Of a stretch of DNA of 64,000 nucleotides, positions 19,060 through 27,634 are shown in pieces. A program made the translations under genes and the position numbers. The notes beneath the pieces are model-generated. The model did no database searches. It saw only the letters and a list, made by a program, of their open reading frames with translations, and was not told the DNA's origin. Position 1 is the first letter of the stretch; each line of letters starts with the position of its first letter. This DNA is from Gemmatimonadaceae bacterium (GTDB lineage Bacteria; Gemmatimonadota; Gemmatimonadetes; Gemmatimonadales; Gemmatimonadaceae): the NCBI GenBank assembly GCA_020846935.1, contig JADLCY010000008.1:1-64000 (forward strand), written 5' to 3'.

Positions 19060-19938
19060 CTAACGATTGAGCCGGATGTTCCCCTTGAAGGAACGCAGCG
19101 TGGCGCGGGCGTCGCCAACGCCCAGGGCCAGGGTCAGCTCTTCCCCCCGCCCTTCCCGTCCCGGCGTGGGACGGCGCGCGGACACGCTGTTGATGATGGT
19201 CCCGGCGATGGTCGTCGCATCGATGTCGATCGACGGCGTGGCGCCGAGTTGCAGGCTGATGGTGCCGCTGTGCGAGTCGATGGTGAGGTTGCCGCCGTGG
19301 CGCATCGTTCCGCCAAACATCACGTCGCCGGTGACAGCTTCGATGCGCACGCGTTCCCACGTGCCGTCGCGCAGGGTGACGCCCCCGCCAACGGTCGTGA
19401 TGCCCACGTCGGACGACGAACCCCGGACGGTCACCTCACCGGTTGCGGTCTTCACCCGCAACCAGCCCGGTGACCCGGTGATGTCCACCGAACCGTCCAT
19501 CGACTCGACGTTGAGCTCGCGCGGCGCACCATTCACGGCGATCGCGCCGCCCACGAGGTTGAGGTCCAGGCTGCCCGTGATGCCGCTCACGTCGAAACGC
19601 GCGTTGCCGGCCTTGGCCCATACGGTCGCGCCGACGGGCACGAACAGCTCGAGCGTGCCCGACGCGCCGCCCTCGGTCGGCGGCTCGATGTAGAACTTTG
19701 CACCCTTCCTCGGCCCGTCGGCCGGCGCACCGAGTGCGGTCTCGACGCGCGTGCCTCGAGGCAGCGTTCCGGTGAGCACGAGGGAGTCCTTTTGCCAGCC
19801 AACGATCCGGAGCGCCGCGTATGCGCCGTTGATGCGGACGTACACGTCGCGCGTTACCGCGTAGCGCGCGTCCACTTTCTGCTGCGCGGCCAGGGGCGCG
19901 GCAGCGAGCATCAGAACGGCGAGCGAACGAACACGCAT
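19060..19938 (-). CDS. Exported DUF4097-family (adhesin-like) protein
   Basis: 292 residues from the ATG at 19938, which opens a signal peptide MRVRSLAVLMLAAAPLAAQQ. The mature protein is a right-handed beta-helix-like run of short strands: ITGSLDLNLVGGAIAVNG, ESMDGSVDITG, TATGEVTVRGSS and SHSGTISLQLG. This is the G-x-I/V-x-x-x-x-x-G ladder of DUF4097/bactofilin-like proteins. These often sit next to ECF sigma/anti-sigma pairs. It follows the anti-sigma gene by 7 bases. The stop codon TAG is part of a CGTTAGG motif (19059-19065). Confidence 0.8.
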   Translation of the reverse strand: MRVRSLAVLMLAAAPLAAQQKVDARYAVTRDVYVRINGAYAALRIVGWQKDSLVLTGTLPRGTRVETALGAPADGPRKGAKFYIEPPTEGGASGTLELFVPVGATVWAKAGNARFDVSGITGSLDLNLVGGAIAVNGAPRELNVESMDGSVDITGSPGWLRVKTATGEVTVRGSSSDVGITTVGGGVTLRDGTWERVRIEAVTGDVMFGGTMRHGGNLTIDSHSGTISLQLGATPSIDIDATTIAGTIINSVSARRPTPGREGRGEELTLALGVGDARATLRSFKGNIRLNR

Positions 19939-19945
19939 GATGGGC

Positions 19946-20740
19946 TCAGGTGGTGGCATCGAGCAGGGTCGCTCGACGCAGCAGTTCGACTTTCTGTCGG
20001 TAGTTGGATGCCAGCAGCTCGGCCAGTGCTGCACTCGCCGGATCGCGCAGCAGCGCCTCGCGCGCCTCCGCGATCGCGGCGTCGATCGTGACCAGGGAGC
20101 GCTCCACGGCCGCCGCCGTGGCCGGATCGAGGCCGGCGCGTTGAGTGTCGAGCTGCGCTCGCAGCTCGACGACGCTGGCCTGGTACCCGCGCTCCGCCGC
20201 CTGCCATTGCGCCGGCAGCATGCTCGCGCCAGCGTCGGCCCGCGTCACGGTCACACGCGCCGCCGAGCCTCGCACGATGAGCAGGGTGAGTCCCGAGGAC
20301 ACGCTCACGAGCGCAACGGCGGCAGCCGCAAGCCAGCGCGGCGACATCCACCACGTGACCCTGGACCGCGCCGGCGACACCGTGAACGCGTCCGTGTTCG
20401 CCGACGCTGGCGCGTCCGTATCGGTCGATGCCCGGGAGACGCCAGCGTTCATCGCGGCCCCGAGCACCTCGGCGTTCGTCCCGGCGATGGACGCGTCAGC
20501 GCCCGCGACGATCGGCGTCACCTTGCGCGCTTCGATCGCATGGCGAACATCGTCCCAGAGACCGATCGGAGGTGCGGCCTCACGGGGCAGCGCCGCGGCT
20601 GCGCCCAGCGTGGCGCGCAGGGCCGTCAACACGTCGTGGCACTCACCGCAATCGCGAACGTGCGCCTCGACCCGCGCGCTCGCGCGCGCGCGATCCTCGG
20701 CGATGTCATTCAGCTGGTCCCAGCCCGGGTGGTCGATCAT
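19946..20740 (-). CDS. Zinc-finger anti-sigma factor
   Basis: 264 residues, ATG overlapping the sigma gene stop (ATGA, 20737-20740). The N-terminal ZAS domain has HVRDCGEC (His27, Cys31, Cys34), the H-x3-C-x2-C zinc motif. A membrane segment (WLAAAAVALVSVSSGLTLLIV) lies near residues 125-147. The periplasmic C-terminus is helical and probably coiled coil (ERSLVTIDAAIAEAREALL). It is expected to hold the adjacent sigma factor at the membrane and release it upon envelope stress. Confidence 0.88.
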   Translation of the reverse strand: MIDHPGWDQLNDIAEDRARASARVEAHVRDCGECHDVLTALRATLGAAAALPREAAPPIGLWDDVRHAIEARKVTPIVAGADASIAGTNAEVLGAAMNAGVSRASTDTDAPASANTDAFTVSPARSRVTWWMSPRWLAAAAVALVSVSSGLTLLIVRGSAARVTVTRADAGASMLPAQWQAAERGYQASVVELRAQLDTQRAGLDPATAAAVERSLVTIDAAIAEAREALLRDPASAALAELLASNYRQKVELLRRATLLDATT

Positions 20741-21303
20741 CGGTGCAGCTTCCTCATGAGCAGTTGACGGGCGCGGTGCAGATGCGCACGCACCGTACCG
20801 GCGGCGAGGTGCATACGCTCGGCGATTTCGTCGTGCCGGAACCCTTCGACGTCGTGAAGCACGAAGACGGCGCGCGCGTTCGGAGGCAATGCGGCGATCG
20901 CGCGTTCGAGGTCGATGCGCTCGAGCACGTCGTCGGGACCATGTGCCCCCGCCACGTCCCCCGTGGTCGCGGTCCCCTCGTCGTCGGCCAGGGCCACCCG
21001 GGCCTCGCGCCGGCGGTCGCTCCTGGCCTGCTCCAGCACGACGTTGACGGTCAGCCGGTGCATCCAGGTGTCGAAGTGCGACTCTCCACGAAAGCCGGGC
21101 AGCCGCTCCCACGCCCGCACGAACGCGTCATGCGAGAGCTCACGCGCCCGCTGGGCATCGGCCGTCATCCGCAGGCAGAGCCCGAAAACCCGCGAGGCAC
21201 TGCGCTCGTAGAGCCGCTGGAACGCGGCCACGTCTCCGGCAGACGCACGGGCGACCCACATTCCCACGTCGTCGGTCGAGCCGACCGGAGACGCGTCGTT
21301 CAT
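20737..21303 (-). CDS. ECF RNA polymerase sigma factor (RpoE-like)
   Basis: 188 residues, using the ATG at 21303 rather than the upstream in-frame codon (the extra residues are Pro/Ala-rich and not sigma-like). Region 2 is ELSHDAFVRAWERLPGFRG and TWMHRLTVNVVLEQARSDRRR. Region 4 is LPPNARAVFVLHDVEGFRHDEIA with AAGTVRAHLHRAR as recognition helix. It is the first gene of a four-gene operon with its anti-sigma factor, a DUF4097 protein and an exported protein. A perfect dyad (GGCATC/GATGCC, 21341-21361) 38 bases upstream marks the likely control region. Confidence 0.92.
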   Translation of the reverse strand: MNDASPVGSTDDVGMWVARASAGDVAAFQRLYERSASRVFGLCLRMTADAQRARELSHDAFVRAWERLPGFRGESHFDTWMHRLTVNVVLEQARSDRRREARVALADDEGTATTGDVAGAHGPDDVLERIDLERAIAALPPNARAVFVLHDVEGFRHDEIAERMHLAAGTVRAHLHRARQLLMRKLHR

Positions 21304-21340
21304 GCGCGGGGCGGGTGCGAGGGCACGAGGGCTCGTCGGA

Positions 21341-21361
21341 GGCATCCGGGTAATAGATGCC
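21341..21361 (-). promoter_or_regulatory. Dyad upstream of the sigma operon
   Basis: GGCATC (21341-21346) and GATGCC (21356-21361) are perfect inverted arms around a nine-base AT-richer centre. On the minus strand this centre contains TATTAC, a possible -10 element. It lies 38 bases upstream of the sigma ATG, so it could be an operator over the promoter. No protein can be assigned. Confidence 0.35.
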
Positions 21362-21524
21362 GATCGGCGTCGGGGCGTTTAGGGAGACCGCGCCCTGGAT
21401 AGGGGATGGGCTGCCGGCCCGCCCCGCGCAAGAGGTGCCACCGGGGTCCGGTCGGCGCAGATTCTTCCTCGGCGGTCCCGCAGGGGACCGCTCGCCCGAC
21501 GCTCAGCAAACCCTCGCCTTTCGA

Positions 21525-22562
21525 ATGCCACCACTCCGCTGGTTTCTCACCTTCCTGTCGTTCGCCACGGCGATCGGCGTGTCGGTGTACGTGATCGCGT
21601 CGAGCTGGCCGGCAGCGGGGGGAGCGCCGCTCGGGCTGCCCTGGTGGACGCACCTGTTGCTGCTCGGCGCCGTAGGGTTCGAGATCCTGTGTCGAGTGCT
21701 CAAGATCGTGTTCAGCGCACGGGCGATCGGCGTACACACACCGTTCGGCGTGGCGGCGCGCACCATCCTCGGTGGTGACTTTGCGGCCTCGATCACGCCC
21801 TCGCGCTCGGGCGCCGAACCGGCGCGCTTTCTCGTGCTCAGCGAGGCAGGAACGGCCGTCGCGAACGTCTTGCTGATCCTCTTTCTGGAGCTTTTTCTCG
21901 AGATGATTTCGCTCGCGGTCATCGCCGTGGGCTTTGGCGTCGTGTGGCGCGAGGAGTCGGGGATGATCCGCGGACTCCTGGCCACGGTGGCGCTGTATGC
22001 GATCGGCGTGCTCGGTGCGGGGGCGGCCTGCTACGTGATTGCGCGGCGTGGGGCCAACGGGCCTCCGCCTGCGCTCGTGCGCGTGCTTGGCATCAACGCC
22101 GGCATCTGGCGCCGGGTGCAGCTCGCGCTCCGCAGCCTTCGATCGAGCATCGGCTCGCTCCGCACGGCGCGTCCTGGGCTCATGGCCACGGCCCTGGCGT
22201 TTTCGATCCTGCACGTGCTGGCGCGACTGCTGGCGTTGCCGATCATCGTCTACACCTACGGCGAACGCGCACCGCTTTCGGCGCTCGTGTTGTGGCCCAT
22301 GGCGCTGCTCTACGGGGCGGCGGTCGCACCAGCGCCGGGCGGCGGCGGCGTGGTGGAGATCGCCTTCAAGGCGGCGCTGGACGGCGTCCTGCCCGGACGC
22401 CTCATGGCGGCCTCGCTGATCTGGTGGCGCGTCTACTCGTTCTACATCTACATCCTGATCGGCGCGGTCGCGGCCGGCCGCACCGTCATGCGTGCGTTGC
22501 GCACCCGCGACGACGGCACCAGCGCCGCGACGGCTGGCTCGGTGGCCACACCCACCGCCTGA
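21525..22562 (+). CDS. Flippase-like integral membrane protein (LPG synthase TM / YbhN type)
   Basis: 345 residues from the ATG at 21525; the frame is open to 21357, but the extra 56 residues are Pro/Gly/Arg-rich and lack a membrane signal. Eight or so hydrophobic helices are visible. The motifs RVLKIVFSARAIG, GGDFAASITPSRSGAEPARF and APAPGGGGVVEIAF are the conserved features of the lysylphosphatidylglycerol synthetase transmembrane/UPF0104 family. The catalytic acyltransferase domain of MprF is absent, so a lipid flippase or lipid transport role is more likely than synthesis. Its TGA overlaps the ATG of the TfoX-like gene by one base. Confidence 0.82.
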   Translation: MPPLRWFLTFLSFATAIGVSVYVIASSWPAAGGAPLGLPWWTHLLLLGAVGFEILCRVLKIVFSARAIGVHTPFGVAARTILGGDFAASITPSRSGAEPARFLVLSEAGTAVANVLLILFLELFLEMISLAVIAVGFGVVWREESGMIRGLLATVALYAIGVLGAGAACYVIARRGANGPPPALVRVLGINAGIWRRVQLALRSLRSSIGSLRTARPGLMATALAFSILHVLARLLALPIIVYTYGERAPLSALVLWPMALLYGAAVAPAPGGGGVVEIAFKAALDGVLPGRLMAASLIWWRVYSFYIYILIGAVAAGRTVMRALRTRDDGTSAATAGSVATPTA

Positions 22563-22995: not shown

Positions 22996-24198
22996 TCAGG
23001 GCACCGTACAGGGCACACGGGTTGCCCGTACCGCGGCACGGTCGCCGGTTGGTGAGATCGTGACCGGCTGGCGTGGGCTGGCCGGCGTCCCATCTGCGCG
23101 CGCGAGCTGAACGAGGTCGCCCTCGCCGGGTGCCCAGATCCACGCGTTCACCACGTTCGAGCCCGGGTCGCGTGCGGCATACCAGGCACGATCGCCGGCG
23201 ATGGGCGCGCGTTGCGGCAGCAGCACGATGCGCTCCGGAACGCCGAGCTGCTGAGTGAGCGGCGTGCGCGCCAACTCGTAGCACAGGGGGGCGCGGGACG
23301 CGTCGACCTCGGCGCGCCGCCGTTCCACGGACGATGCCGCGCCGGTGGCGGCGACCTGCATCGGCTGAAGGTTTGCCTTGCGCTCGCCCTCGAGGCGCCT
23401 TGCTTCGGCGGCCACGACCGAATCCGCCCTGGGAGCGGCGCGGGGCACGGGAGCCGCCGCGATGGTCGTCGGCGCAGGTGGCGTCGAGTCCGCCGTGGTT
23501 CGCGCGAGGCGATCCACCTTCGCTTCCGCGGCCACCGCCTCCTGCGCGATCTCCCTTCTCGGAGCGTCCGCGGCGAGTGTGCGGATGGCGCCCACGGTGC
23601 CCGCCGCGTCCACGCCACTTGATGCGCTGGCCTCGCCGCGCCTGGCGCCGCCTTCCGGACCTGCATCCCGCAGCGAACGCTTTTCAGATGCCGGTGTTGC
23701 CGTGACGGCGACGGATTTCGGTGATGCAGGCACGCCGGCCGCCACGGCTCCGGTCCCGACCTCGGGGCCGGCCGGCGCTGGAGGCGGCGCCGTCCCCAGT
23801 GCCGCCGAGTCCATGCGTTGGGCCGCGACCGGCGCGGGCGCCTCGCTCACCGCGCCGGGGCTCCGGCGCAACACGGTCATCGTACCCACGGCAAGCACCG
23901 CGACCGCCGCCGCGGCGGCAAACTGTGGATGGCGGTAGAACGGCCGACGCCGGCGCAGCCCCGCGTTCGTCGGCCTGGGCGAACGCGTCGCTCTGCGCGA
24001 GGTCGGGCTGACGTCGCGGGGCACGTCGTCCAGCGCGTTGAGGATGCGAGCCGACGCGGCCACGAGTCCGCGGGCCTCGGCGACCGTCGCCGCGCAGGTC
24101 GCACACTCGGCGACGTGCGCCGCGAGCGCCGCGGCCTCGTCGGGCGCAAGCTCCCCGTCGAGCCAGGCGTGGATGGTGCCTTCGTCAGGATGCCGCAT
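22996..24198 (-). CDS. Zinc-finger anti-sigma factor with long periplasmic domain
   Basis: 400 residues. The ATG at 24198 follows GGAGG by five bases and is preferred to the GTG at 24210. The N-terminal zf-HC2 motif is HVAECATC (His28, Cys32, Cys35). A membrane segment lies near 92-110 (FAAAAAVAVLAVGTMTVL), followed by a long Ala/Pro/Ser-rich stalk. The C-terminal part (about 290-400) contains PERIVLLPQRAP and looks like a small folded beta domain. The gene overlaps the upstream sigma gene by 14 bases. The large extracytoplasmic part suggests it senses or binds something in the periplasm. Confidence 0.83.
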   Translation of the reverse strand: MRHPDEGTIHAWLDGELAPDEAAALAAHVAECATCAATVAEARGLVAASARILNALDDVPRDVSPTSRRATRSPRPTNAGLRRRRPFYRHPQFAAAAAVAVLAVGTMTVLRRSPGAVSEAPAPVAAQRMDSAALGTAPPPAPAGPEVGTGAVAAGVPASPKSVAVTATPASEKRSLRDAGPEGGARRGEASASSGVDAAGTVGAIRTLAADAPRREIAQEAVAAEAKVDRLARTTADSTPPAPTTIAAAPVPRAAPRADSVVAAEARRLEGERKANLQPMQVAATGAASSVERRRAEVDASRAPLCYELARTPLTQQLGVPERIVLLPQRAPIAGDRAWYAARDPGSNVVNAWIWAPGEGDLVQLARADGTPASPRQPVTISPTGDRAAVRATRVPCTVP

Positions 24199-24712
24199 GA
24201 CTTCCTCCACCGCCCGAGTCGGCGGCCTGCAGGGCTTCGTACGACTCGGCGAGACGGCGTCGCGCCCGCGCGAGCGTCGTCCCGATCGAACCGACGCTCA
24301 TGCCTAACGCTTCGGCAATCTCACCGTAGTTCAGGCCTTCCTCCTTCATCAGCAGGGCGAGGCGATCGCGCTCGGCGAGGCCGTCCACCGCGCGGCGCGC
24401 GAGGGCCTGCTCGCGCGCGCGGTCCGCATCGGGCACCACCGGCTCCACGACGCGGTCCCGCTCCTCCTCGGCCAGCAACTGCAGGTGACGACGCCGTCGC
24501 TCGTCCTTCCGTGCCTCGTCCCGCACGAGGTTGGTCGCGACCGCAAACAGCCACGACCGCTCACTCGTCAGGCGCTCCTGGCGAAGGGCGCGCAGGAAGG
24601 TCTCCTGCGCGACCTCTTCGGCCCAGTCGCGGTCACCCAGCCGTCGCGTGAGATACCGCACGAGCGGAGTGTGGTAGAGGTGAAAGAGTCGTTCGAGCTC
24701 GTCGTCGCGCAT
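24185..24712 (-). CDS. ECF RNA polymerase sigma factor
   Basis: 175 residues. Region 2 is LFHLYHTPLVRYLTRRLGD and AEEVAQETFLRAL, with SWLFAVATNLVRDEARKDERRRR. Region 4 is LAERDRLALLMKEEGLNYGEIA with ALGMSVGSIGTTLARARRRL. It lies 6 bases after a VIT-VWA gene and overlaps the anti-sigma gene by 14 bases, so the three are an operon. The Gly-rich C-terminal tail (DSGGGGSHAAS) is not conserved sigma sequence. Leu in EALGMS is a TTA codon in a CGTTAGGC motif. Confidence 0.92.
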   Translation of the reverse strand: MRDDELERLFHLYHTPLVRYLTRRLGDRDWAEEVAQETFLRALRQERLTSERSWLFAVATNLVRDEARKDERRRRHLQLLAEEERDRVVEPVVPDADRAREQALARRAVDGLAERDRLALLMKEEGLNYGEIAEALGMSVGSIGTTLARARRRLAESYEALQAADSGGGGSHAAS

Positions 24713-24718
24713 CCGCCG

Positions 24719-27019
24719 CTACCAGTCGCGCATCACGGTCGCCAGTTCGGCCGCCGTGAGGCGCTCCACCCCGGTCGGCGCGAGGGCGACCGCCACCGCG
24801 CGGCCAGCAACCACCACGCGCTCGCCGAGCGCAAAGGGGGCGGCCAGCTGGTCGAGGCGTTGCAGCAACGCGAAGTACGCGGGAGAGAAGGGCTTGACGG
24901 TCACGGTGCGCAGGCTCGCGACGAAACGTGTATCGGTCCATACACCGTTGGCGAGGGTGAAGAGCCGCCCACCGGCCCGGCGCGGACCCGCCGTGCCCGC
25001 GACCTCATCCAGCTCGGCCGTCGATTTCGCTTCTCGCTGCCTCGCGGCGGCGCGCGCTTCCTCGAACCGGCGCTCGCTGGCGCTGGGCGCCGCGGGCATC
25101 GCGCCCGCGCCGCTCGCGGCCTGGGCGGTGGGGACGGCGTTGCCCAGCGACGCGCGGTCGCGACGCAGCCCGGCGTCCCGCGGGAGACTGGCCGGCCCGT
25201 CACGCATCGCGGCGACCGTCGTGCCCGGCTCCACGACCAGGTACGACGTGAACTCGGTCGGGATGCCGTACCGCTCGCCTAACGAACGGATCTCGGCGTC
25301 CATCTCCTGGCTGGCGCCGCCTCGGCGCTTCTCGGCGGCCAGCCAGCCGATGCGCTGGGCCGCCCAGAGGCGCGCGACGAACGGGTTGTCGCGGTCGTGG
25401 TCCGCGAAGCGGGCGCGCGTTGACCACGTCACCGGGCCGTCCACCGACTCTCCCTCGAGGCGCACGCTCGCGTCGCCGTGGCCCTCGTAGCGGGCGAGCA
25501 CCACCATGTCCTGGCCCGCGAACAGGTCGATCGGTCCCGACGGCAGCACCTGGTGGAGCCGCACACCGTCCACCCGCAGCCGCACGTTGGTCAGCACCGG
25601 CGCGGTGAGGCGCGAGGCGAGGAGCGACACCGTGCGCTCCACGGATTCGCTGTCCCTCACGAAGTGCGCCGTGCCGCGGCCTTCGATGGCCAGTTGTTCG
25701 ATGAGGCCGGCGTTCACGTCGGCACTCACGCCGATGGCAAAGAGCCGCGCCTTTCCCCGCTGGCGCGCCGCCATCGCCGCGATGCGATCCGGATTGCGTT
25801 CACCGATGGTCGGTTCGCCGTCCGTCATGAAGACCACGAGCGGCAACCGCTCGCCGTCGCTCCGCGCCTCGAGCGCGGCCTCGAGCGCCCCGGAGATGTT
25901 GGTCGAGCCGTCGGCCTGCAACGCGTCGAGGTAGCGACCCGCCTCGCGCACGTTGTCGCGCGTGGCCGAGGTAAAGCCGTCGCGGAAGCTGCGGACGTCG
26001 GTGGAGAAGTCCACGATGCGGAAACGATCCTCGGCGCGGAGTGACGCAAGGAGCACGTGGCCCGCCTCGCGCGCCTGTTCCATCTTGCGACCGCGCATCG
26101 AACCCGATACGTCGATCACGAGCGTCACGTCCCGCGGCAACGTGCGCTGCGCCGTCGCCGGCGGACTAATGGTAAAAAGCGCGAACCCGGCGTCGTCGTC
26201 AGGGTCGTGAGTGAGGACGCTGATCGCCGCGGTGTTGGGTCGCCGAAGCGGGAGGAGGATCGTCACGTCCGCGGCGCTGCCCCGCGCCTCCACGACGTGT
26301 TCGCGACCGGCGTCGCGCTCGCGCAGGGTGTGGGTCGGCGAATACGGATCGCCGTAGGCATTGCCCGGCTGGTACCGCAGCGTGAACGCCGTCCAGCCGC
26401 CAGTTTCCGCGGCCAATCCGCGCGGTTCCACCGCAGGTCGGACGAGCGCGGGCGCGCCGGACGCGTTGGGATCGCTGCCGCGTCGGTAGTCCACGCGGAG
26501 CGCGTCGCCTTCGCGGGATGCAACCGCCTGAAAGCGGACGACGACCTTCTTCTCCTCACCCGGTGCAATCGGAAAGATCCGCGTCCGCAACATCCCGCTT
26601 CCCATCCACTCGACCAGGGCCGGATCGCGCTGACGCCGCACGATCTCTTCGTAGATGCTGCGCGCCCGATCCGCCGTCATGGTTTCGCCAGCGACCAATT
26701 CCCCGTTGATCGACAGTTTGAGGTCCTCGAACGCGGCCCCGGCCGGCAGGGGAAAGATGTAGTCGGCCTCGGCCACACTTCGGCCTCGATTCACGAACGT
26801 CTCCGTGACCTCATAGCGCAGCACGCGGTCGGTGAGCGCGACCTGCACCGTGCTTCCCGACCGAACGAGCGTCGGGCCGCAGTCGGTCACGGCGACTCGC
26901 CCGCATTCCGCATCTGGCCGGCATGCCGGTGGTGGAGCGCAGCGGGAGATCAGGCGGCCCTGTGCCAACGCAAGGGTGGGTGACAGGGCAAGGAGCAGCG
27001 GGACGAGTCGGCGGTGCAT
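24719..27019 (-). CDS. Secreted VIT and von Willebrand A domain protein
   Basis: 766 residues, ATG with GGAGA six bases upstream. The order is signal peptide (to about 19), a short Cys-containing segment (RCAPPPACRPDAECG), VIT domain (about 50-180; VTETFVNRGRSVAEADYIFPLPAGAAF), VWA domain (about 298-470) with the MIDAS motif DVSGS (303-307), and an Ala/Arg-rich stretch followed by a small C-terminal domain (VWTDTRFVASLRTVTVKPFS). This is the layout of bacterial inter-alpha-trypsin inhibitor heavy-chain-like proteins. It probably binds metal-dependent ligands at the cell surface. It is the first gene of an operon with a sigma factor and its anti-sigma factor, an unusual order that ties the protein to the signalling. 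Confidence 0.9.
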   Translation of the reverse strand: MHRRLVPLLLALSPTLALAQGRLISRCAPPPACRPDAECGRVAVTDCGPTLVRSGSTVQVALTDRVLRYEVTETFVNRGRSVAEADYIFPLPAGAAFEDLKLSINGELVAGETMTADRARSIYEEIVRRQRDPALVEWMGSGMLRTRIFPIAPGEEKKVVVRFQAVASREGDALRVDYRRGSDPNASGAPALVRPAVEPRGLAAETGGWTAFTLRYQPGNAYGDPYSPTHTLRERDAGREHVVEARGSAADVTILLPLRRPNTAAISVLTHDPDDDAGFALFTISPPATAQRTLPRDVTLVIDVSGSMRGRKMEQAREAGHVLLASLRAEDRFRIVDFSTDVRSFRDGFTSATRDNVREAGRYLDALQADGSTNISGALEAALEARSDGERLPLVVFMTDGEPTIGERNPDRIAAMAARQRGKARLFAIGVSADVNAGLIEQLAIEGRGTAHFVRDSESVERTVSLLASRLTAPVLTNVRLRVDGVRLHQVLPSGPIDLFAGQDMVVLARYEGHGDASVRLEGESVDGPVTWSTRARFADHDRDNPFVARLWAAQRIGWLAAEKRRGGASQEMDAEIRSLGERYGIPTEFTSYLVVEPGTTVAAMRDGPASLPRDAGLRRDRASLGNAVPTAQAASGAGAMPAAPSASERRFEEARAAARQREAKSTAELDEVAGTAGPRRAGGRLFTLANGVWTDTRFVASLRTVTVKPFSPAYFALLQRLDQLAAPFALGERVVVAGRAVAVALAPTGVERLTAAELATVMRDW

Positions 27020-27163
27020 GGCGGTCTCCGGGGAGGTTCACCGGGGAGACGTCGGCGGTCCGAAAACTTGCACACGAGGGGGCTACCCTCCCCCCAGGAC
27101 CCTGAGCCACCGCTCGGCGAGGGCCGACGCGCGCGTGGCGCGCTATGGGACCCCGAACCGTGT

Positions 27164-27634
27164 CTACCTCGCCACGCGAAACCCCTTCCGCACCGTGGCA
27201 AGGGCCACGCGCAGCGAGTCAAAGGCGCGGAAGTCGCGGCTCCCTTCGGCGAATGGGTTGCCTGGCGCCACCGAGGCCGCGAACACCTGGCCACCGGCAC
27301 TCGCAAGAGAGTCCAGCCCGGGGACGCGCTCACCGACCGCCGCCGCCGACCATGCGGCGGAGTCAAAGACGAAGATGCCAAGCAGCGGCTGTCGTCCCGT
27401 GCCTGAATCGCGCGGTGTGTAGATGAACGTTCGCGCCGAGCGGGTACCTGGGACAGACCCGGAGTCCTCGAGCGTCACGCGATCATCCCACGTTGCCGGC
27501 GCATCGAACGCCCAGCCGATGGGCGCCGGCGGCAGCGTTATCGACGTCGTGTCGGACTCGGGCGCGGGGCGCGCGTCGCACGCGGCGAGCAGGATCGGAA
27601 CGACAAGGAGGGTGAACAGGATCTGACGGAGCAT
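27164..27634 (-). CDS. Lipoprotein of unknown function
   Basis: 156 residues with a lipoprotein signal ending LLAAC (Cys19). The mature part is short and mixed, with LPPAPIGWAFDAPATWDDRVTLED at its start; this phrase is typical of small lipoproteins with a PsbP/Mog1-like fold, but I cannot confirm the family. No catalytic motif is visible. It lies between an M20 peptidase gene (36 bases upstream) and the VIT-VWA gene (144 bases downstream), all on the minus strand. Confidence 0.65.
   Translation of the reverse strand: MLRQILFTLLVVPILLAACDARPAPESDTTSITLPPAPIGWAFDAPATWDDRVTLEDSGSVPGTRSARTFIYTPRDSGTGRQPLLGIFVFDSAAWSAAAVGERVPGLDSLASAGGQVFAASVAPGNPFAEGSRDFRAFDSLRVALATVRKGFRVAR

Follow-up and report, generated by a model that had tools for sequence, protein, structure and literature searches.

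A predicted autoregulated module of an ECF sigma factor, a membrane anti-sigma factor and an exported VIT-VWA protein in Gemmatimonadota

Does a VIT-VWA protein that is encoded directly ahead of an extracytoplasmic function (ECF) sigma factor and its membrane anti-sigma factor take part in their regulation, or do the three genes only share a neighborhood? This question is raised by a locus of a Gemmatimonadaceae bacterium (phylum Gemmatimonadota), located in the 64,000-nucleotide stretch of DNA analyzed in this study (hereafter the window; GenBank assembly GCA_020846935.1, contig JADLCY010000008.1, positions 1 to 64,000, forward strand). Based on open reading frames (ORFs) and Pfam matches, the minus strand carries, in the order of transcription, the VIT-VWA gene (24719-27019, 766 aa), the ECF sigma gene (24185-24712, 175 aa) and a membrane anti-sigma gene with a zf-HC2 domain (22996-24198, 400 aa from an ATG start). 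Comparison with relatives suggested that the locus represents a Gemmatimonadota module in which an ECF sigma factor, a membrane anti-sigma factor and an exported VWA protein are autoregulated and govern a small envelope regulon, with the VWA protein most likely serving as a periplasmic modulator. To this reading we assign a probability of about 60%.

First, we analyzed the gene order. The initial annotation had placed a 766-residue VIT-VWA protein 6 bases ahead of the sigma gene and had the anti-sigma gene overlapping the latter; the ORF coordinates agree on both points, with an overlap of 14 bases from the ATG at 24198. The longest anti-sigma ORF (22996-24210) has a GTG start, encodes 404 aa and overlaps the sigma gene by 26 bases, whereas the ATG at 24198 is the start that fits the relatives, an offset of -14 being the most frequent among them. 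The VWA protein was matched in 195 of the 395 sampled genomes of the phylum (some matches being weak), and the VIT domain was found in 162 of the 395. Neighborhoods were compared for the best matches and for further loci chosen by hand to represent different families; duplicates (L018, L079, L080 and L084) and three loci at contig ends (L019, L020 and L033) were left out of the count. In 65 of the 69 evaluable loci, which came from several families of the class, VIT-VWA was directly followed by a sigma gene and an anti-sigma profile hit. The four loci lacking a sigma gene at this position were a Chloroflexi relative (L038; none in the 1156 bases after VIT-VWA), L042 (genome G342) and two loci of family f6 (L077 and L078). 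By coordinates alone, a sigma orthologue was located downstream of VIT-VWA, on the same strand and within 1500 bases, in 64 of 68 genomes of the family (within 254 bases in 61), counting those that had a VIT-VWA match among the matches listed (the strong end) and were included in the sigma-orthologue sample; three of the exceptions (G047, G182 and G291) appear to be due to broken contigs or fragments. A scan of contigs for relatives yielded seven loci, six from Gemmatimonadota (Gemmatimonadaceae among them) and one from Chloroflexi. Relatives were also matched in 39 plasmid records, and no sigma neighbor was observed in the three regions opened (H1, H7 and H10). The initial annotation had raised the question whether VIT-VWA genes next to sigma factors are rare outside this locus; in these counts, which come almost entirely from Gemmatimonadota, the arrangement is the rule.

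Second, comparison of the upstream regions of relatives revealed a predicted ECF-type promoter, TGTGCAAG-N15-CGTCTC, comprising -35 and -10 elements. The window contains an exact match (27046-27074, minus strand) 26 bases before the VIT-VWA start codon, and a sigma-70 consensus scan found no promoter. With up to two mismatches, the motif occurred between -300 and +60 around the VIT-VWA start in 59 of the 69 loci (window included; 33 exact), compared with 4 of 1515 other stretches taken from these loci, a contrast that is partly circular given that the motif was derived from these loci, and of which the genome-wide searches below are free. Among 60 sites (up to three mismatches, spacer 15), no variation was seen in GTGCA or in the C, T and C of CGTC. 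For 35 of the 59 loci, the distance from the end of the -10 element to the start codon chosen was 25-31 bases. No motif was found near the VIT-VWA start in the two f6 loci (4 mismatches in L077 and 6 in L078), which also lack a neighboring sigma gene. In L063, where the sigma gene is present, the motif is poor (4 mismatches), perhaps due to a wrongly set start.

Third, the motif appeared to define a small set of genes. Allowing spacers of 14-16, we found 132 exact sites in 91 of the 148 genomes of the family, compared with 18 for the reversed pattern (a hand sum). The genes directly after them, classified by contig and coordinates with representatives named by Pfam, encoded VIT-VWA (52, including the G230:C304 site assigned by likeness of the site alone), DUF4349 (21), CarboxypepD_reg-VWA (12, nine of which carry YfbK_C by match positions), SIMPL (12), the sigma factor itself (8) and DUF4139 (5). 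These six classes cover 110 of the 132 sites; two further sites precede a small exported protein, and 20 remained unclassified (seven of them, in G399, G395 twice, G410 twice, G396 and G409, were not opened), which is close to the number predicted by the reversed control. By eye, the DUF4349, SIMPL and DUF4139 proteins behind the motif begin with export signals. In L138 and L161, the motif is followed by short proteins whose N-terminus looks export-like and which contain repeated RMPxxRPDxxR-type segments; the L161 protein had no Pfam match. Outside the family, the motif was detected in 22 genomes of families f2 and f3, compared with two for the reversed pattern (hand count), and in the order overall it was present in 123 of 288 genomes.

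In the window's own genome exactly two sites have no mismatch, one before the VIT-VWA operon and the other (L223:2226-5660, C1:340725) before a DUF4349 gene; next in line are an unnamed ORF and Band_7, a flotillin-type gene. Sites with two mismatches numbered 20, below the 51 of the reversed control, and a third near-match (C13:176294) was taken as chance, the opposite ORF reading by eye as FtsH. A general linkage of DUF4349 to flotillin had been expected and was not borne out: among 21 DUF4349 loci, mostly about 2-3 kb long, the middle ORF was present only in L099 and L170, which belong to the window's genus, and Band_7 was found in L170, where the gene order starts in the same way, and, with longer sequence, in L223.

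Occurrence of the motif was then related to that of the sigma factor. A clear sigma orthologue (E < 1e-50) was present in 94 of the 148 genomes, and the exact motif in 76 of these 94 as against 15 of the 54 without an orthologue (Fisher p 2e-10, which ignores the kinship of the genomes and is only a guide). The reversed pattern was not associated with the sigma factor (10/94 versus 6/54). The trend also held within genera, most cleanly in g10, where four genomes had both and seven had neither; exceptions in g2 and g9 had the motif while no sigma orthologue was found (G182 and G263, G294, G307). When it is not preceded by VIT-VWA, the sigma gene bears the motif itself, exactly in eight cases and with 1-3 mismatches in others. 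It is therefore predicted, from a motif that precedes VIT-VWA and tracks the sigma factor, that VIT-VWA is a target of its own sigma factor, and it is probably the product of the sigma encoded after it. This shared putative promoter gives good support to the view of the three genes as a single unit.

The proteins themselves are consistent with such a unit. The 175-aa sigma factor has regions 2 and 4 only (Sigma70_r2, E 5.6e-11; Sigma70_r4_2, E 6.3e-13; both above Pfam cut-offs). The anti-sigma factor has a zf-HC2 domain with H-x3-C-x2-C (PF13490, E 4.9e-8, above cut-off; 24091-24174, minus strand) and one transmembrane segment predicted by hydropathy (residues 92-110; 23869-23925, minus strand). 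Together with the adjacency of the two genes and the ECF-type promoter before the operon, these features assign the pair, by sequence, to the ECF sigma factors with class I anti-sigma domain (ASDI) partners. Residues 114-305 of the anti-sigma consist of 27% Ala and 11% Pro and are followed by a 95-residue C-terminal end with two Cys. Thus, the Ala/Pro richness noted in the initial annotation stands, whereas the unusual length claimed for the periplasmic part does not, as the 400 aa compare with a median of 379 (range 280-481) among 58 complete anti-sigmas of the family. Of 65 anti-sigmas, 15 (L028, L029, L031, L040, L041, L043-L050, L093 and L097) keep the rest of the domain but showed no H-x3-C-x2-C zinc ligands; because of these, zinc or thiol sensing by the anti-sigmas cannot be the general signal.

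The VIT-VWA protein consists of a VIT domain (residues 57-162; 26534-26851, minus strand; PF08487, E 3.5e-21) followed by a VWA domain (residues 297-461; 25637-26131, minus strand; PF00092/PF13768, VWA_3 E 1.2e-21), both above cut-offs. D303, S305, S307, T373 and D400, which we take to be the metal ion-dependent adhesion site (MIDAS) set, are all present and identical in each of the 72 sequences aligned, that of the window among them; the first three lie in DVSGS (residues 303-307; 26099-26113, minus strand). Pfam returned only VIT, VWA-type families and CobT_C for this protein, and no MucB/RseB fold. An AlphaFold model built from six sequences was of moderate quality (mean predicted local distance difference test score 61), and the best solved-structure match of the whole model was inter-alpha-inhibitor heavy chain 1 (6fpy, E 4.2e-31). 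By eye, the N-terminus resembles a type-I signal peptide (...ALA/QG), and neither a lipobox nor LPXTG, the two kinds of anchor looked for, was found in the protein. It is thus predicted to be exported, which is as much as can be claimed, and the label of surface protein given to it earlier was not borne out.

Evidence linking VWA domains to the anti-sigma side came from relatives in which the two are joined. In nine genomes of one genus (g4), which are all the genomes of that genus in the sample with both the sigma factor and YfbK_C, the anti-sigma is fused to vWF_A-VWA-YfbK_C in one polypeptide, the VWA section being assigned to its periplasmic part. In L217, L218 and L219, the anti-sigma frame after the sigma gene runs through zf-HC2, a hydrophobic segment (by eye), vWF_A, VWA with DVSGS and YfbK_C, the last three families all being above Pfam cut-offs. 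The other six (L227-L232) have one ORF after sigma with an anti-sigma profile hit and DxSxS, and YfbK_C is in frame by coordinates. Two further g4 genomes (G111 and G383) have VIT-VWA directly before sigma instead of the fusion. In G079 (L233), sigma and anti-sigma are followed by a CarboxypepD_reg-VWA gene that bears an exact motif of its own; in other genomes this gene is unlinked from sigma and keeps the motif. The two VWA types also appeared to replace each other: among the 85 sigma-containing genomes of both samples, YfbK_C was found in 4 of 64 with VIT compared with 16 of 21 without it (kinship ignored). For this comparison only, two genomes whose sigma match next to VIT-VWA was weaker (G134 and G393) were counted as sigma-containing, and three genomes with contig-broken VIT-VWA (G332, G360 and G390) were counted as lacking VIT; leaving them out gives 15 of 18. 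The window's own genome has no YfbK_C match. Whether all of this reflects one ECF class across Gemmatimonadota, in which a MIDAS-bearing VWA protein is an exchangeable periplasmic control module of the anti-sigma (as a VIT-VWA protein of its own in most genomes, as a free-standing CarboxypepD_reg-vWF_A-VWA-YfbK_C protein in others and as a covalent part of the anti-sigma in one genus), is in our view an evenly balanced matter.

From the fusions, the adjacency and the exchange of VWA types, a role of the VWA protein on the anti-sigma side appears somewhat more probable than its absence. Release by the anti-sigma would allow the sigma factor to transcribe its own operon, VIT-VWA first, as well as genes for exported proteins elsewhere that are preceded by the motif. 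These encode DUF4349 here, to which relatives add SIMPL, DUF4139 and another VWA protein. The VWA protein would act in the periplasm on the outer part of the anti-sigma, as a sensor or a feedback modulator, comparable to RseB acting on RseA, and the signal might be envelope damage. By analogy, we guess that negative feedback is the likelier sign of control. Of these steps, we infer the reading of the motif by sigma, the contact between VWA protein and anti-sigma, the nature of the signal and the sign of control. The signaling idea of the initial annotation is therefore retained for the three-gene unit, whose shared promoter tracks sigma, and, indirectly, for the contact, through the nine fusions and the exchange of VWA types. 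An obligatory sensor is less well supported because VIT-VWA and sigma are split in G342, because G107, G199 and G244 lack VIT and YfbK_C matches, and because VIT-VWA, lying behind the presumed sigma promoter, is an output as well.

Several observations weigh against the modulator reading. The C-terminal end of the anti-sigma is poorly conserved between families, which is odd for a fixed docking surface. The fused VWA is of the YfbK type and not of the VIT type, so that the fusion speaks for VWA domains in general; among the three fusions tested with Pfam, zf-HC2 is below cut-off in L217 (above in L218 and L219) and CarboxypepD_reg is just below it in all. YfbK_C also occurs in 6 of 42 genomes without sigma, and four genomes hold both VIT and YfbK_C, one of which (G004) has a YfbK-type locus (L242) without the motif although sigma is present. 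No sigma orthologue was detected in three genomes that have CarboxypepD_reg-VWA genes behind the motif (G363, G368 and, with one mismatch, G252). The association of motif and sigma is also incomplete, as 18 of the 94 genomes with sigma lack an exact motif and 15 of the 54 without it have one. Finally, some sigma pairs have no detected VWA partner or have an unlinked one: G342 has VIT-VWA and sigma/anti-sigma on separate contigs, and G107, G199 and G244 have sigma without a VIT or YfbK_C match, as do G332 and G390, but in these two the VIT-VWA matches begin at contig ends.

Part of this last group of observations also favors the strongest alternative, that VIT-VWA is a mere output, an envelope-protecting protein under sigma control without any role on the anti-sigma. 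VIT-VWA has the motif even when unlinked from sigma (G342), the other motif-preceded proteins (DUF4349, SIMPL and DUF4139) likewise start with export signals by eye, and the pairs of G107, G199 and G244 have no detected VWA partner. On the other hand, nine fusions of anti-sigma and VWA are unexpected for a mere effector, as are the common adjacency and the swap of VWA types, and we regard this alternative as a credible but clearly less probable explanation.

A positive sensor, in which VIT-VWA with an outside ligand bound at the MIDAS pulls the anti-sigma into proteolysis, is close to the initial annotation, and the invariance of the MIDAS residues and the fusion of VWA to anti-sigma in relatives would fit it. 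No surface anchor was seen among the two kinds searched for and no ligand is known, however, sigma pairs without a detected VWA protein exist, and a promoter of its own sigma fits feedback more naturally. We therefore consider this version unlikely, and less likely than a periplasmic modulator.

It is also conceivable that the motif is read by another regulator, either another ECF sigma or a DNA-binding protein, and that the adjacent sigma is unrelated to it. The pairing of sigma and motif comes from sequence comparison, and 15 of the 54 genomes without an orthologue at the strict cut-off have a site. Against it, eight exact sites lie directly before sigma in loci where no VIT-VWA gene comes first, motif and sigma occur together also within genera, and the f6 relatives without a neighboring sigma lack the motif too, which makes this alternative improbable. 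A chance neighborhood in this one genome, where 39 Sigma70_r4_2 matches mean that sigma neighbors are not rare, is refuted because the gene order is conserved in the 64 of 68 genomes and 65 of 69 loci given above.

The RpoE-RseA-RseB system of Escherichia coli combines an ECF sigma, a membrane anti-sigma with a periplasmic part and an exported third protein in one autoregulated operon. The present locus is similar in having a sigma, a membrane anti-sigma, an exported third protein and predicted autoregulation; it differs in that the third protein is VIT-VWA, without an RseB/MucB fold by Pfam, and is first in the operon, and in that relatives have the VWA protein fused to the anti-sigma. Inter-alpha-trypsin inhibitor heavy chain 1 shares the VIT-VWA fold order, whereas the window protein is bacterial, lacks DPH[FI] and has no C-terminal domain of that inhibitor among its Pfam matches. 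Its best NCBIfam match is TIGR03788 (marine proteobacterial sortase target; 262.9 bits), which likewise combines VIT and VWA; however, the score is below the cut-off of 551.65 bits, and the protein has no LPXTG and adjoins an ECF sigma and an anti-sigma. Several plasmid-borne relatives are annotated as TIGR03788, and the two opened adjoin a class GN sortase. The exchangeable VWA partner of relatives belongs to the YfbK family (vWF_A-VWA-YfbK_C), whereas the window protein is of the VIT type.

According to PMC7406223, approximately 79% of Gemmatimonadetes ECFs are ASDI-associated, and ASDI groups retain fused domains; the present pair resembles those described there in combining a sigma with a zf-HC2 anti-sigma with one transmembrane segment, and neither "VWA" nor "von Willebrand" occurs in its main text. 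In Azospirillum brasilense, overexpression of RpoE6 raised a gene cluster with two VWA-domain proteins (PMC12826043); the neighbors differ there (Sel1 repeat and hypothetical proteins), and the passage on this cluster mentions no VIT domain or fusion. In Bacillus subtilis, yuaF-yuaG(floT)-yuaI belongs to the core sigma-W genes, placing a flotillin operon in an ECF regulon (PMC3498285). This is reminiscent of the second exact site of the window's genome, which precedes the DUF4349/Band_7 gene set, whereas the promoter and proteins differ and a link to Band_7 was observed in no more than two genomes, both belonging to the window's genus. For the combination of sigma, anti-sigma and VIT-VWA we found no description in the literature searched, which lacks many subscription papers; it may be known under an ECF group number.

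Other genes of the window lie close to the locus. A small gene upstream of the motif (27164-27634, minus strand) has an N-terminus that reads as a lipoprotein signal, and it had no Pfam or NCBIfam match. On the other side, behind a second ECF sigma gene (20737-21345, minus strand) lie a frame that by eye resembles an anti-sigma and the gene of a DUF4097 protein (19060-20034), the set spanning 19060-21345 on the minus strand; a lysylphosphatidylglycerol-synthase-like gene (21357-22562, plus strand) separates it from the main locus.

The promoter, the regulon and the fusion extend what the initial annotation had described. To our knowledge, no function is known for most of the bacterial VIT-VWA and YfbK proteins and of the families DUF4349, SIMPL and DUF4139, and three of these bear "unknown function" in their Pfam names. 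Our results tie these families, via one predicted promoter, to one ECF sigma factor, and the motif offers a concrete sequence that could be tested in a cultured relative. The natural fusions, in turn, provide evidence that VWA domains may regulate anti-sigma factors.

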